In this document: positions 17,327 through 45,338 of the stretch, in pieces
Numbering within the stretch: position 1 is the stretch's first letter
Layout of the letters: each line of letters starts with the position of its first letter
NCBI GenBank assembly: GCA_903875215.1
Contig: CAIQVH010000031.1
Coordinates: 124,001-188,000, forward strand
Length of the DNA stretch: 64,000 nucleotides
From: an uncultured Anaerolineae bacterium
Lineage (GTDB): Bacteria; Chloroflexota; Anaerolineae; Anaerolineales; Villigracilaceae
Reading direction: 5' to 3'
The notes under the pieces: model-generated
Seen by the model: only the letters and a program-made list of their open reading frames with translations
Told to the model about the DNA's origin: nothing
Database searches by the model: none
Made by a program: the position numbers and the translations under genes

Positions 17327-18145
17327 ATGAAAATCGCATTCCAGGGTGAACCTGGCGCTTATAGCGAGCAGGCCGTTTTCGGGTATTTTGGTTCTGTCGA
17401 AACGGAACCATGCGAGAGCTTTGATAAAGTTTTTGAAGCAGTAGCCAGCGGCAGGGCGGAATCTGCGTTGATTCCCATCGAAAATTCGCTGGCGGGCAGC
17501 ATCCACCAGAATTATGATCTGCTGCTGCGTCACAACCTGCACATTGTCGGCGAGTATTTCCTGCGCGTGCGCCACTGCCTGATCGTCGCGCCGGGCGTGC
17601 AAAAAGCTGACATCAAGAAGGCTATCAGCCATCCGCAGGCGCTGGGGCAGTGCGCCGGGTACCTGCGCGAGCGCGGCATCAAGCCCGAGACGGTCTACGA
17701 TACCGCCGGGAGCGTGAAAATGCTCAAAGAGAGCGGCGCGCGTGACACGGCGGCCATTGCTTCGCGGCGGGCGGCGGAACTTTACGGGATGGAGATTCTT
17801 GAAGAGGGAATTGAAGATAACCCGGAGAATTTCACCCGCTTCCTGGCGATCCAGCCGGAAGCGATCTGCCCTGAAGGTGAGTCCAAGACTTCGATTGTGT
17901 TCACGCTGAAAAACCTGCCCGGCGCGCTGTTCAAGGCCCTGAGCGTGTTTGCCCTGCGCGACATTGACCTGACGAAGATCGAGTCGCGCCCGCTGGCCGG
18001 CAAGCCCTGGGAATACCTGTTTTACATCGACTTTATCGGCGCGGAGCATGAAGCGCATGTGAGCAAGGCGCTCGATCACCTGAACGAGTACGCGCTGATG
18101 CTGCGGGTGCTGGGTTCGTACCGTCGGATGAAATATGAAGGATGA
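17327..18145 (+). CDS. pheA: Prephenate dehydratase with ACT domain
   Basis: It converts prephenate to phenylpyruvate in Phe synthesis. The start [16 protein letters not shown] at 17327 matches the family N-terminus. The catalytic domain (1-~180) has [13 protein letters not shown] and the active-site TRF motif in NFTRFLAI. The ACT domain follows ([20 protein letters not shown], with the ESRP motif in [14 protein letters not shown]), so feedback inhibition by Phe is expected. At 272 aa it is a stand-alone enzyme without a fused chorismate mutase. It lies 1 nt after mazF and apart from the aromatic operon at 41.6-47.5 kb. Confidence 0.95.
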
Positions 18146-28430: not shown

Positions 28431-28458
28431 TTGACGTTTGGCCGAAAAAGCCTATAAT
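28431..28458 (+). promoter_or_regulatory. Sigma70-like promoter of the ilv operon
   Basis: TTGACG (28431-28436) and TATAAT (28453-28458) are 16 nt apart; transcription should start near 28465. The promoter is 70 nt upstream of, and divergent from, the oxidoreductase gene, and ~240 nt before ilvD. Confidence 0.8.
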
Positions 28459-28478
28459 CGGGCGAAACCTTGACGCTT

Positions 28479-28583
28479 ATGGAAATCATACTGTTGCTCA
28501 TCTCTATTCTTGTCGTCCTTCTTTCGGTCCTTATTATTAAGGGCCTGAAAGTGGTTGGGATGGCAAAGGTGAGCAATCGGTAG
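28479..28583 (+). CDS. Ile/Leu/Val-rich leader peptide of the ilvD attenuator
   Basis: A 34-codon ORF, ATG at 28479, TAG at 28581. It starts ME and continues [18 protein letters not shown] (residues 3-20), then [14 protein letters not shown]. Twenty of 34 residues are Ile, Leu or Val; of residues 3-20 only two are not. No Shine-Dalgarno sequence precedes it. Composition, position just after the promoter and the following terminator match the leader peptides known for enterobacterial ilv operons, though the sequence is not obviously homologous. The regulatory role is inferred. Confidence 0.82.
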
Positions 28584-28633
28584 CGACACCTTCTCAGAAA
28601 ACGAGAGCCGCCCAACTACAGGGCGGCTCTTTT
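28521..28633 (+). terminator. Ile/Leu/Val attenuator: pause hairpin, candidate antiterminator and terminator
   Basis: Pause hairpin inside the leader ORF: CTTTC+GGTCCTTA (28521-28533) with TAAGGGCC+GAAAG (28538-28551), 13 pairs with one G-U and a bulged T. Terminator: AGAGCCGCCC (28604-28613), loop AACTACA, GGGCGGCTCT (28621-28630), then T residues. Candidate antiterminator: GTGGTTGGG plus GGC (28551-28564) with GCC plus CCCAACTAC (28608-28620), one G-U and a bulge. A smaller AAGGTG/CACCTT hairpin (28566-28592) sits between. How the ribosome shifts the balance is less clear here than in the Arg leader. Confidence 0.75.
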
Positions 28634-28699
28634 CATACCCCAGCACACTCCCTCATTTCCAGCTCATTTCCCGCTGGGAGCAGGGAACAAAGGAGATCT

Positions 28700-41609: not shown

Positions 41610-41617
41610 TTCCCTCC

Positions 41618-41646
41618 TTGACAGTTCTCGTCCGCTAACATAAAAT
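41618..41646 (+). promoter_or_regulatory. Sigma70-like promoter of the aromatic operon
   Basis: TTGACA (41618-41623) and TAAAAT (41641-41646) have the ideal 17-nt spacing, directly after ilvE. The start site should be near 41653, about 4 nt before the leader ORF. Confidence 0.85.
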
Positions 41647-41656
41647 AGCGACCAGT

Positions 41657-41734
41657 ATGAAAACGACTTTCCGATATTTTGCGTTTTACTTTTATTACGG
41701 CTCCCGACTCCCGGCTGCCGGTGGTGACGCTTAA
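41657..41734 (+). CDS. Phe/Tyr-rich leader peptide of the aroH attenuator
   Basis: A 25-codon ORF: MKTTFRYFAFYFYYGSRLPA then AGGDA and TAA. Eight of the ten codons 5-14 encode Phe or Tyr (TTC, TAT, TTT, TTT, TAC, TTT, TAT, TAC). The ATG is 10 nt after the -10 box, the same distance as in the Arg leader, and no Shine-Dalgarno sequence is present. The operon makes chorismate-derived Phe/Tyr precursors, so the composition matches the end products. The regulatory role is inferred by analogy with pheL-type leaders. Confidence 0.85.
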   Translation: MKTTFRYFAFYFYYGSRLPAAGGDA

Positions 41735-41791
41735 ACGGAAGGTGAACCCTACCTGACCTGAAGAGAGCGCGCCAGACGGCGCGCTCTTTTT
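41707..41791 (+). terminator. Phe/Tyr attenuator: pause hairpin, antiterminator and terminator
   Basis: Pause hairpin: ACTCCCGG (41707-41714), loop CTG, CCGGTGGT (41718-41725), seven pairs with one mismatch. Antiterminator: GGTGACGCTT (41723-41732) with GAGCGCGCC (41765-41773), nine pairs with one bulged A. Terminator: AGAGCGCGCC (41764-41773), loop AGAC, GGCGCGCTCT (41778-41787), then four T. A ribosome stalled on the Phe/Tyr codons (41669-41698) would reach the first arm and release the antiterminator strand. The terminator would also stop readthrough from ilvE. Confidence 0.78.
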
Positions 41792-41874
41792 GTTTACCCC
41801 CCACTTTTGTTCCATTTGCGCTGAAGGGAGCGCAAACGGGAAAGTTGAAAGGTGGGCTTCATAAGGAGAAATTT

Positions 41875-42324: not shown

Positions 42325-43365
42325 ATGATGATCATCATGAAATCCCACGCCACACCCCAACAAGTGGAGCATGTTATTGAGCATGTCAGGGCTGTCGGAC
42401 TGGCGGTTCATCTTTCACAGGGTATCGAAGCCACCATCATCGGCGCGATTGGCGAGACACACAACCTGCCCACCGAACTGTTCGAAACCCTCGAAGGCGT
42501 TGATATGGTTCAGCGCATCACCCAACCCTACAAGCTGGCCTCCCGCCAGTTTCACCCGGAAAACTCGGTTTTCCCGTTGGCCGGATCTGCTATCGGCGGA
42601 GAGGAAATTGCGATCATGGCGGGCCCGTGTTCGGTGGAGTCGCGTTCCCAGATCATCGAAACTGCGCACGCCGTCAAAGAGGCGGGAGCATCCGCCCTGC
42701 GCGGCGGAGTCTTCAAGCCCCGCACCTCGCCCTACGCTTTCCAGGGATTGGGCGAGGAAGGCCTGGAATACCTGGCCGAAGCCCGCGAACAGACCGGCCT
42801 GCCGATTGTGGTTGAGATTATGTCGCAGGTGCAGTTGGATGTGATGGTGAAGTATGTGGACGTTTTGCAGGTCGGCGCGCGCAACATGCAGAATTTCAAC
42901 CTGCTGCGCGCCATTGGCGAGACAAAAACCAGTGTCCTGCTCAAACGCGGACTTTCCGCTACCATAGAAGAACTGCTCATGTCTGCCGAGTATATTCTTT
43001 CCGGGGGAAACAAACAGGTCATGCTGTGCGAGCGTGGCATCCGCACTTTTGAGACTGCCACTCGCAATACCACCGACATTAACGCCATCCCCGTCCTGAA
43101 AAACCTGACCCACCTGCCCATCATTCTTGACCCGAGCCATGCCACCGGCCACGCCGATTATGTCGCCGCCATCGCCCGCGCCGGAATCGCCGCCGGGGCC
43201 GATGGCCTGATTGTCGAAGTTCACATGGACCCAGCCCATGCTGTTTCGGACGGCAAACAATCGCTCAAACCCGAAGCCTTCGCCAAAATGGTCAAACAGG
43301 TCGGCCAGATTGCGCAGATTATGGATCGCCGCCTCGCATCCGTTCGGTTTCCTGTGAAACAGTGA
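42325..43365 (+). CDS. aroF: DAHP synthase, class I-beta (copy 1)
   Basis: A 346-aa 3-deoxy-D-arabino-heptulosonate 7-phosphate synthase, first step of the shikimate pathway. The first ~70 residues form the ferredoxin-like regulatory domain known from Thermotoga-type enzymes ([20 protein letters not shown]). The barrel has [39 protein letters not shown] and [20 protein letters not shown]. It is followed by a close paralogue; the pair may be sensitive to different end products. Confidence 0.95.
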
Positions 43366-43370
43366 ACACT

Positions 43371-43425
43371 AATCACTGATTACTGAAACTCGCTAATTAC
43401 CATTTACCACTCACCCATTACCAAG
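43371..43425. repeat. Family A-related spacer between the DAHP synthase genes
   Basis: Words such as AATCACTGATTACTGAA and CTAATTACCATTTACCACTC, related to the family A consensus, fill the 71-nt gap. The dyad is poor. Confidence 0.5.
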
Positions 43426-43436
43426 GAACCTTCCCT

Positions 43437-44480
43437 ATGATGATCATCATGCACCCCGGCGCGACCAAAGAACAGGTTGCCCATGTAATCGAACACATCG
43501 AAGAACACAATCTCTCCGCCCACGTTATCGAAGGTGTGGAACAGACCATTATCGGCGCGGTTGGCGAAAGCCATTCTGTAGCCAAGGAGGTCTTTGAAAC
43601 ACTCCCGGGCGTAATGGCCGTCCAACGCATTTCCCAGCCTTATAAACTGGCCTCGCGACAGTTCCATCCAAGCGACAGCGTTTTTCCCATCGACGGATTC
43701 TCCGTCGGCGGCGAGGAAATCGCCATCATCGCCGGCCCATGCTCGGTCGAAGGCCGTTCTCAACTGTTGGAAATCGCCCAGGCCGTCAAAGAAGCCGGAG
43801 CCAACGCCTTGCGCGGTGGCGCCTTCAAACCGCGCACTTCGCCCTACGCTTTCCAGGGCCTCGGTGAAGAAGGCCTCGAATACCTGGCCGAAGCCCGCGA
43901 AGTCACCGGCCTGCCGGTCGTGGCCGAAATCATGGCCATCTCGCAAATCGAAGCCATGGTCAAATATGTCGATGTGATGCAAATCGGCGCGCGTAATATG
44001 CAAAACTTCAATCTCCTGCGCGCCGTCGGCGAAACCCGCACCCCCGTTCTGCTCAAACGCGGCCTCTCGGCCACCGTCGAAGAACTGCTGATGGCTTCCG
44101 AATACCTGCTCAGCGGCGGCAACACCCGCGTCATGCTCTGCGAGCGCGGCATCCGCACCTTCGAAACCGCCACCCGCAACACCACCGACATCAACGCCAT
44201 CCCCGTTCTCAAAGGCCTCACCCACCTGCCCGTCATCCTCGACCCCTCGCACTCCACCGGCCACGCCGCCTACGTCAGTTCCATCGCCAAAGCCGCCATT
44301 GCCGCCGGGGCCGACGGTCTCATCATCGAAGCCCACCAGGATCCTGCCCACGCCATGTCCGATGGTAAACAATCCCTGACCCCCGAAGCCTTCGCCAAAC
44401 TCGTCACCCAGGTCAAGGCCGTCGCCGAAGCAGTTGGACGCCGCGTAGCCGTCCCCCTCGCCCACCGGGAGAGGGGCTAG
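43437..44480 (+). CDS. aroF: DAHP synthase, class I-beta (copy 2)
   Basis: A 347-aa tandem paralogue of the preceding gene with the same domain order: ferredoxin-like domain ([20 protein letters not shown]) and barrel ([40 protein letters not shown]). Long blocks are identical to copy 1, while the regulatory domain differs more. Its last residues (VPLAHRERG) are encoded by a family B repeat that extends into the tyrA ribosome-site region, so the natural end may have been shifted. ATG at 43437 follows AAGGAACC. Confidence 0.95.
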
Positions 44481-44492: not shown

Positions 44493-45338
44493 ATGTTTTC
44501 CCTCAAAAATTCCACCATCGCCATTATTGGATTGGGACTGATGGGCGGCTCGCTGGCCCTCGCGTTAAAGGGACATTGTTCTACCCTTATCGGAATCGAC
44601 CCGGATTCGACCGCCCTGTCGCTTGCCCTCCGTCAAAACATCGTCGACCAGGCGGATAGCGACCCCGCCAAACTCCTCCCATTGGCCGATCTCGTTATCC
44701 TGGCCGCCCCCGTCCCGGCCATTTTGACTCTGCTGGAGCAACTCCCCGCCTTTACACCGAATCCCTGCATCGTGCTCGACCTCGGCTCGACCAAACGCGC
44801 CATCGTCGAAAAGATGGAGACCCTGCCCGAGCGCTTTGATCCCATCGGCGGCCACCCGATTTGCGGGAAAGAAAAACTGACCCTTGCCAACGCCGAGCGG
44901 ACGCTCTACTACGCCACCCCCTTCATCCTGACCCCGCTTGCCCGTACCACCCCCCGCGCCCGCGCCGCCGCCGACCAGATTCTCGCTGTCCTCGGCGCGA
45001 ATCGCATCATCATCGACCCCGCCGACCACGACCGGATTCTCGCCAGCACCAGCCACCTTCCTTTCCTGCTCTCCTCTGCCCTGGCCTTGGCCACCCCCGA
45101 CGAGTGCGCCCCGCTCATCGGCCCTGGCTTCCGCTCCACCAGCCGCCTGGCCGGGACGCATTCCAATATGATGATGGGCGTCCTGCAAACCAACCGCCAG
45201 AACATCCTCGCCGCGCTCGAAGCTGTGCAGGATGAACTCGCCCTTCTCACCTCCGCCCTTGCCGAAAACGACTTCGACACCATCCAAACGACTCTCGACG
45301 CAGCCCGCGAGAAATATAACGGCCTGGTAAACAAGTAG
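44493..45338 (+). CDS. tyrA: Prephenate dehydrogenase
   Basis: A 281-aa enzyme converting prephenate to 4-hydroxyphenylpyruvate for Tyr. The Rossmann motif is IAIIGLGLMGGSLALALKG. GGHPICGKEKLTLANAE and LASTSHLPFLLSSALAL are family signatures with the catalytic His residues. No ACT domain follows, so end-product control may rest on DAHP synthase and attenuation. The stop codon lies inside a CAAGTAGACAAGAAAAC repeat, which supplies the last codons (NK). Confidence 0.94.
   Translation: MFSLKNSTIAIIGLGLMGGSLALALKGHCSTLIGIDPDSTALSLALRQNIVDQADSDPAKLLPLADLVILAAPVPAILTLLEQLPAFTPNPCIVLDLGSTKRAIVEKMETLPERFDPIGGHPICGKEKLTLANAERTLYYATPFILTPLARTTPRARAAADQILAVLGANRIIIDPADHDRILASTSHLPFLLSSALALATPDECAPLIGPGFRSTSRLAGTHSNMMMGVLQTNRQNILAALEAVQDELALLTSALAENDFDTIQTTLDAAREKYNGLVNK

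Follow-up and report, generated by a model that had tools for sequence, protein, structure and literature searches.

On the forward strand of the window, the whole 64,000-nucleotide stretch of DNA analysed here, a short reading frame rich in aromatic codons and a set of predicted hairpins precede six genes of aromatic biosynthesis. Profile matches identify these as aroH, encoding chorismate mutase (TIGR01796; 41875 to 42246), two DAHP synthase genes (TIGR01361; 42325 to 43365 and 43437 to 44480), aroA, encoding EPSP synthase (TIGR01356; 45386 to 46684), and aroE, encoding shikimate dehydrogenase (TIGR00507; 46688 to 47554), with a tyrA-like prephenate dehydrogenase gene between the second DAHP synthase and aroA (44493 to 45338; best E value 3.4e-51, under the curated cut-offs). 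The gene after aroE lies on the opposite strand, and from the spacing and common strand of the six genes we take aroH to aroE to be one operon. The initial annotation had spoken of a DAHP synthase operon; its first gene is that of the AroH-type chorismate mutase, and the two DAHP synthase genes take the second and third places. The tandem DAHP synthases (42325 to 44480) share about 76% identity over 322 residues. Both lie behind the leader and they are the only two PF00793 genes in the window's genome; no PF01474 gene was found in that genome, which is 98.6% complete, and the aroH operon therefore seems to be its only entry to the shikimate pathway. Prephenate dehydratase (PF00800), with a single match in the genome, is encoded apart from the aromatic operon, at 17333 to 17860 of the same strand of the window. 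TrpE (PF04715) was not found in this nearly complete genome, so that the organism may not synthesize Trp; the window's leader has no Trp codon.

The leader ORF extends from 41657 to 41734 on the forward strand and comprises 25 codons and a TAA stop (41732 to 41734). Direct reading confirmed the run of sensor codons that had been reported from the sequence, FRYFAFYFYY at codons 5 to 14 (41669 to 41698), with four Phe and four Tyr codons. A promoter scan placed a -35 box, TTGACA, and a -10 box, TAAAAT, at 41618 to 41646 with a 17-nt spacer between them; 11 of 12 positions match the consensus, and shuffled sequences average 0.4 such sites. The leader ATG is situated 10 nt 3' of the -10 box and has no Shine-Dalgarno sequence, and the mRNA is for these reasons probably near-leaderless at 41657. 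Leaderless genes were detected in 4 of 12 Chloroflexi genomes, at a mean of 4.7% of genes, in the accessible portion of an earlier survey (PMC3160421). An ORF with at least 8 Phe, Tyr or Trp codons in 10 appeared in none of 3,000 dinucleotide shuffles of positions 41610 to 41874; the leader is also the sole short ORF of the window with more than 6 aromatic codons in 10 (1,310 short ORFs scanned, 740 on the forward and 570 on the reverse strand), and the 148-nt leader RNA folds more stably than all 200 of its shuffles (z = -4.9). Given these comparisons, a chance origin of the leader is very unlikely.

Predicted alternative hairpins between the leader and aroH

Folding places an intrinsic terminator (3:4), a 14-pair stem followed by GTTT, at 41760 to 41791 of the forward strand. 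The fold of 41760 to 41796 has an energy of -25.1 kcal/mol, and no equally stable structure was found among 200 shuffles; a simple terminator scan of the window did not list it. Three competing hairpins, ending in a terminator directly before the DAHP synthase operon, had been described in the initial annotation: the three alternative hairpins and the terminator stand, whereas the gene that follows is aroH, which begins 83 nt after the terminator stem. Most of the 3' arm of the predicted antiterminator (segment 3, 41765 to 41774) is formed from the 5' arm of the terminator. Its partner, the 5' arm (segment 2, 41722 to 41732), was assigned from folding and from cross-species fit, and this arm reaches just into the stop codon, its last base being the T of the TAA. 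The antiterminator as first written, GGTGACGCTT (41723 to 41732) paired with GAGCGCGCC (41765 to 41773) with one bulged A, was correct to the base; the fold of 41710 to 41774 contains one pair more, and 2 of 200 shuffles match its stability. Within the antiterminator loop, folding predicts a small hairpin, AGGTG-AACCC-TACCT (41740 to 41754). The protector, or pause, hairpin (1:2; 41692 to 41727) is predicted to have a core of 41698 to 41701 with 41717 to 41720 and an inner stem of 41704 to 41706 with 41712 to 41714; its 5' side contains the last Tyr codons, and its 3' side has bases in common with the 5' arm of the antiterminator. In the window this hairpin has no unusual stability, 20 and 31 of 200 shuffles being equally stable for the two stretches that were folded.

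Conservation of the leader in related genomes

Twenty loci came from a scan for relatives of AroH, and 19 of them are titled Anaerolineales, Anaerolinea, Anaerolineae, Anaerolineaceae or Chloroflexi. Two were left out, one with no upstream DNA (L019) and one a remote homolog with 37% identity (L021), and upstream of aroH at all 18 homologous loci examined there is an aromatic leader of 24 to 26 codons, such as MLKSTRWFAFYFYYGFRDSVAVGGA. In one of these leaders (L004) the end of the run lacks one base; the last Tyr is lost, the rest is kept and the stop falls 4 nt later. From the window and the 18 loci we built a covariance model of the protector and terminator, R1, which matched 34 of 396 genomes of the class, including 23 of the 25 from the window's own family; the two family genomes with no R1 match have no aroH family match either. 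Thirty R1 loci were fetched, among them the window itself and a repeat (L026) of the model-building sequence L020, and five matches in the class (E values of 5e-4 to 0.0097) were left out of this set. At every one of the 30, aroH was in place by tblastn and an ORF with at least 5 aromatic codons in 10 was present; three came from other orders, with E values of 1e-5 to 2e-3. Two pairs of loci represent the same place (L064 and L089; L115 and L047), and a dummy region (L120) was dropped.

Across the whole family, R1 matched 115 of 152 genomes. Leaders were read in 112, after subtraction of G790, which the script missed, G849, where the contig ends, and G792, a partial match with no leader seen; the leader of G785, with 4 aromatic codons in 10, was retained. 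Seven weak second matches occurred in the family (E values of 3e-4 to 0.008), and the three of these that were fetched gave no convincing leader. Comparison bore out the Phe/Tyr codons as a conserved feature, since both amino acids are encoded in 112 of 112 family leaders, with Trp in addition in 68. The promoter pattern precedes 110 of the 112, with a spacer of 17 nt in 104 and a distance from -10 box to ATG of 8 to 12 nt in 100 of the 110; a Shine-Dalgarno-like motif was found before none of the 112. Bacterial transcription usually starts about 7 nt past the -10 box, and the leader mRNAs of the family are therefore probably leaderless or begin a few nucleotides 5' of the AUG. A hairpin ending in TTT, with an energy below -14 kcal/mol, is present in all 112.

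In the 70 family leaders of 25 codons, codons 10 to 14 are mostly Phe or Tyr. Phe and Tyr are exchanged between species, in near-even proportions at codons 12 and 13, and the aromatic class is kept at codons 10 to 13, as expected if tRNA reads these codons. Tyr stands at codon 14, the final codon ahead of the hairpin, in 64 of the 70, and 84 of 106 family leaders have TAC immediately ahead of their first Gly codon. Where Trp is present in the 25-codon leaders, it usually occupies codon 7 (54 of 70), which is early for the stalling geometry. The C-terminus lies in a shifted frame in 15 of the 112 leaders, all 15 of which stop 4 or 7 nt past the TAA of the others, and this indicates that near segment 2 the RNA is conserved and not the peptide. 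The family thus keeps the aromatic class of the codons read from the ATG and the RNA that follows, but not the peptide after the run.

A link between the Trp codon and Trp synthesis, scored by TrpE, gave p = 0.017 in a first sample of 48 genomes and p = 0.004 in the 23 family genomes among them; it was dropped, with p = 0.30 over the 112 leaders, 0.19 in genomes at least 90% complete and 0.09 in those at least 95% complete. In G790 (L226, 161 onward) the run reads YSYFAFYFYYG, and the frame misses the usual stop and continues through the terminator; this leader is an assembly error or a decayed switch and is an exception that the attenuation model does not explain. G765 has two copies of the leader (L223 and L224); one precedes aroH-DAHPS-tyrA-aroA, and between the other and the DAHP synthase gene behind it no aroH was found. 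Contamination is possible in this genome.

To survey the phylum, we used a sample of 400 genomes, 229 of which have aroH. Of the 69 of these loci that were inspected (30 returned with flanks and 39 fetched), 18 had an ORF upstream in which 6 or more codons in 10 are aromatic; on the opposite strand a single locus of the 69 did. The 18 include loci from seven more families of the class, as well as from f108, with leaders like MQPRSAYFFWFWYFASSPRDWLLRVG, and f110, which lie outside it. Aromatic runs in f71 are shorter; two with 5 aromatic codons in 10 (L083 and L121) were accepted as leaders because strong hairpins come after them, and a further ORF with 5 in 10, lying 515 nt upstream (L100), was not. 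No leader was found at 49 of the 69 loci, and in 20 of these cases a frame open for 80 codons or more closes no further than 50 nt from the aroH match, so that aroH may there be internal to an operon. Among the distinct leaders gathered by the class and phylum searches, Phe and Tyr occur together in 65 of 65 and Trp in 41. To judge by sequence, aroH is preceded by similar putative leaders in further orders of the class and, beyond the class, in a few families.

Comparative tests of the RNA structure

In an alignment of 19 sequences, double compensatory changes affect 9 of the 15 terminator and protector pairs, a count reached in none of 500 shuffles and lower in all six slid registers. In the terminator, where 98.6% of cells are paired, double changes affect 6 of 11 pairs; in the protector, 3 of the 4 inner pairs have compensatory changes. 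The two antiterminator helices, with 84% and 94% of cells paired, showed no double change in the same alignment. In the small hairpin of the antiterminator loop, 6 of 8 pairs show double changes, although as many arise in 74 of 500 shuffles when the whole structure is considered. RNAalifold, applied to 111 distinct family leaders, returned the core hairpin and the terminator only, and a strict script found the terminator in 56 of the 65 diverse leaders, some of the others having a poor U-tract.

Segment 2 fits its own terminator arm better than it fits those of other species, a result equalled in none of 5,000 permutations with 103 distinct arms or with a set of 44 divergent arms, in a procedure that ignores relatedness. 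With the divergent set, the own arm was among the best 6 in 15 cases and below the middle in 14, most of the latter in the family, and the window's own arm ranked 22 of 44; support from this fit comes mainly from lineages outside the family. When antiterminator duplexes were compared sequence by sequence, only 16 of 56 had at most 5 of 100 shuffles as strong (the window, 21 of 100), and the cross-species permutation is the evidence for the antiterminator that we retain.

Discussion

We consider that the leader is very probably a ribosome-mediated transcription attenuator of the trp/phe type, operating on a near-leaderless mRNA. Such a device comprises a short ORF in which codons for end products of the pathway are clustered, and an intrinsic terminator between this ORF and the operon, and both are present in the window. 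Antiterminator and terminator appear mutually exclusive from folding and cross-species fit, with no double changes and weak per-sequence shuffles, and the protector overlaps both the sensor codons and segment 2, with a stability in the window not above that of shuffles. From this anatomy and its conservation, established by computation, we infer the transcription start, the stalling, the readthrough and the parts played by Phe and Tyr. RNA polymerase would start a few nucleotides 5' of the ATG at 41657, leaving a near-leaderless 5' end for a ribosome to load onto. If charged tRNA-Phe or tRNA-Tyr were scarce, the ribosome would stall in the run at 41669 to 41698. A ribosome stalled with a codon in its A site covers about 12 to 13 nt downstream; codons 11 to 14 would be best placed, and a stall there would open the protector hairpin. 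Segment 2 (41722 to 41732) could then pair with segment 3 (41765 to 41774), the terminator would not form and aroH-aroF-aroF-tyrA-aroA-aroE would be transcribed. Were both amino acids plentiful, the ribosome would reach the stop at 41732 and mask segment 2, and the terminator at 41760 to 41791 would halt transcription. Attenuation by a translated Phe/Tyr leader, as put forward in the initial annotation, fits the conserved run, the spacing of promoter and ATG, the compensatory changes, the antiterminator arm that ends in the stop codon and the fit of segment 2 to its own arm. A broader proposal holds that Phe, Tyr and often Trp codons are interchangeable, so that the scarcest charged tRNA opens the cell's only DAHP synthase genes, and that this arrangement, found across the Anaerolineae and in a few families outside, is possibly ancestral; we regard it as evenly poised between right and wrong.

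The attenuator could operate as proposed with Phe as its sole effective signal and the Tyr codons as passengers. There is a precedent in AroR of Corynebacterium glutamicum, which, according to a review, responds to Phe and reportedly not to Tyr (PMC11802643). This version is unlikely in the light of the leaders themselves: most 25-codon leaders (64 of 70) have Tyr at codon 14, the Phe/Tyr exchange at codons 12 and 13 is near even, and TAC precedes the first Gly in 84 of 106, although this last preference may be explained by RNA pairing, since the C of the codon also pairs in the hairpin. We infer that Tyr acts alongside Phe.

Arrest peptides conserve particular residues, whereas these leaders differ in the order of Phe, Tyr and Trp and use either of two frames for the C-terminus. 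Nascent-peptide arrest like that of TnaC, in which the peptide would sense a free aromatic amino acid and stall the ribosome, is on this evidence very improbable, even though the leader peptide is short and hydrophobic and TnaC is described as sensing Trp (PMC8429421, in part). A T-box or another riboswitch for tRNA or ligand would share the terminator/antiterminator layout, as T-boxes have it too, but the RNA 5' of the terminator is mostly ORF and no Rfam family, the T-box included, reached its gathering score in the window; a loose-threshold search of the leader region gave sub-threshold matches only, with Phe_leader (RF01859) among them at 15.9 bits, below its gathering score of 55, and we rate a riboswitch as extremely improbable. 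The region lies directly 3' of ilvE and could in principle combine a chance U-rich tract with the ordinary terminator of that gene; the likelihood of this is close to nil, as a promoter is found between ilvE and the terminator and the tests of conservation, frame and composition are contrary to it.

The mechanism of the proposed attenuator is already known from the trp and phe attenuators; its mixed Phe/Tyr sensor is a variation open to test. The phe leaders of E. coli are Phe rich and have protector, antiterminator and terminator hairpins as in the window, and their translation start is led by a Shine-Dalgarno sequence, unlike that of the window's leader. In C. glutamicum, an aroR leader before aroF was reportedly described by Neshat et al. 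in 2014. This aroR-aroF pair is the nearest known case in content: in the portions of the sources available, a leader with Phe and Tyr codons precedes a DAHP synthase gene and acts by ribosome-stalling attenuation (PMC11802643, PMC4046766), and a Phe/Tyr leader before DAHP synthase genes is likewise what the window contains. The likeness is one of content, as aroR has Phe-Tyr-Phe only, whereas the leader in the window has eight Phe/Tyr codons, is followed first by aroH and belongs to another phylum. Attenuators are also listed at E. coli pheA (pheL) and pheST (PMC11802643, in part), which use Phe alone, whereas the window's leader mixes Phe and Tyr. According to the accessible texts, the trp leaders of Sinorhizobium meliloti and Streptomyces lividans share the same logic, with an ORF at the 5' end of the RNA, and differ in having Trp codons and in preceding trpE (and trpS in Streptomyces) (PMC7298713, PMC8079986).

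The available part of a 2005 survey of Actinobacteria reports no conserved RNA element ahead of Phe or Tyr operons (PMC1262725); that of a 2010 survey gives leader-peptide systems as unshown beyond Proteobacteria and Actinobacteria and adds Firmicutes (PMC2965389), and a survey of leader genes, in its accessible text, refers to Chloroflexi solely for the small number of their genomes (PMC4833913). In our searches of open-access literature we found no description of a leader-peptide attenuator in Chloroflexota. The leader would thus extend attenuation by amino acid leader peptides to this phylum, and it suggests that attenuation is possible on near-leaderless mRNAs in Chloroflexota, as in Actinobacteria and Sinorhizobium. 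Together, the R1 covariance model and the natural series of leaders with varied Phe, Tyr and Trp codons make the weighing of several amino acids by one leader testable.

A second leader-attenuator candidate is located before ilvD in the same window, at 28431 to 28634 of the forward strand, with an ORF at 28479 of 34 residues and many Ile, Leu and Val codons, and its presence counts toward the attenuation reading of the aroH leader. The candidate heads the gene series ilvD-ilvB-ilvN-ilvC-leuA-leuC-leuD-cimA-leuB-ilvE; a promoter-like TTGACG/TATAAT pair is found 5' of its ORF, and a hairpin, GAGAGCCGCCC..GGGCGGCTCTTTTC, 3' of it.
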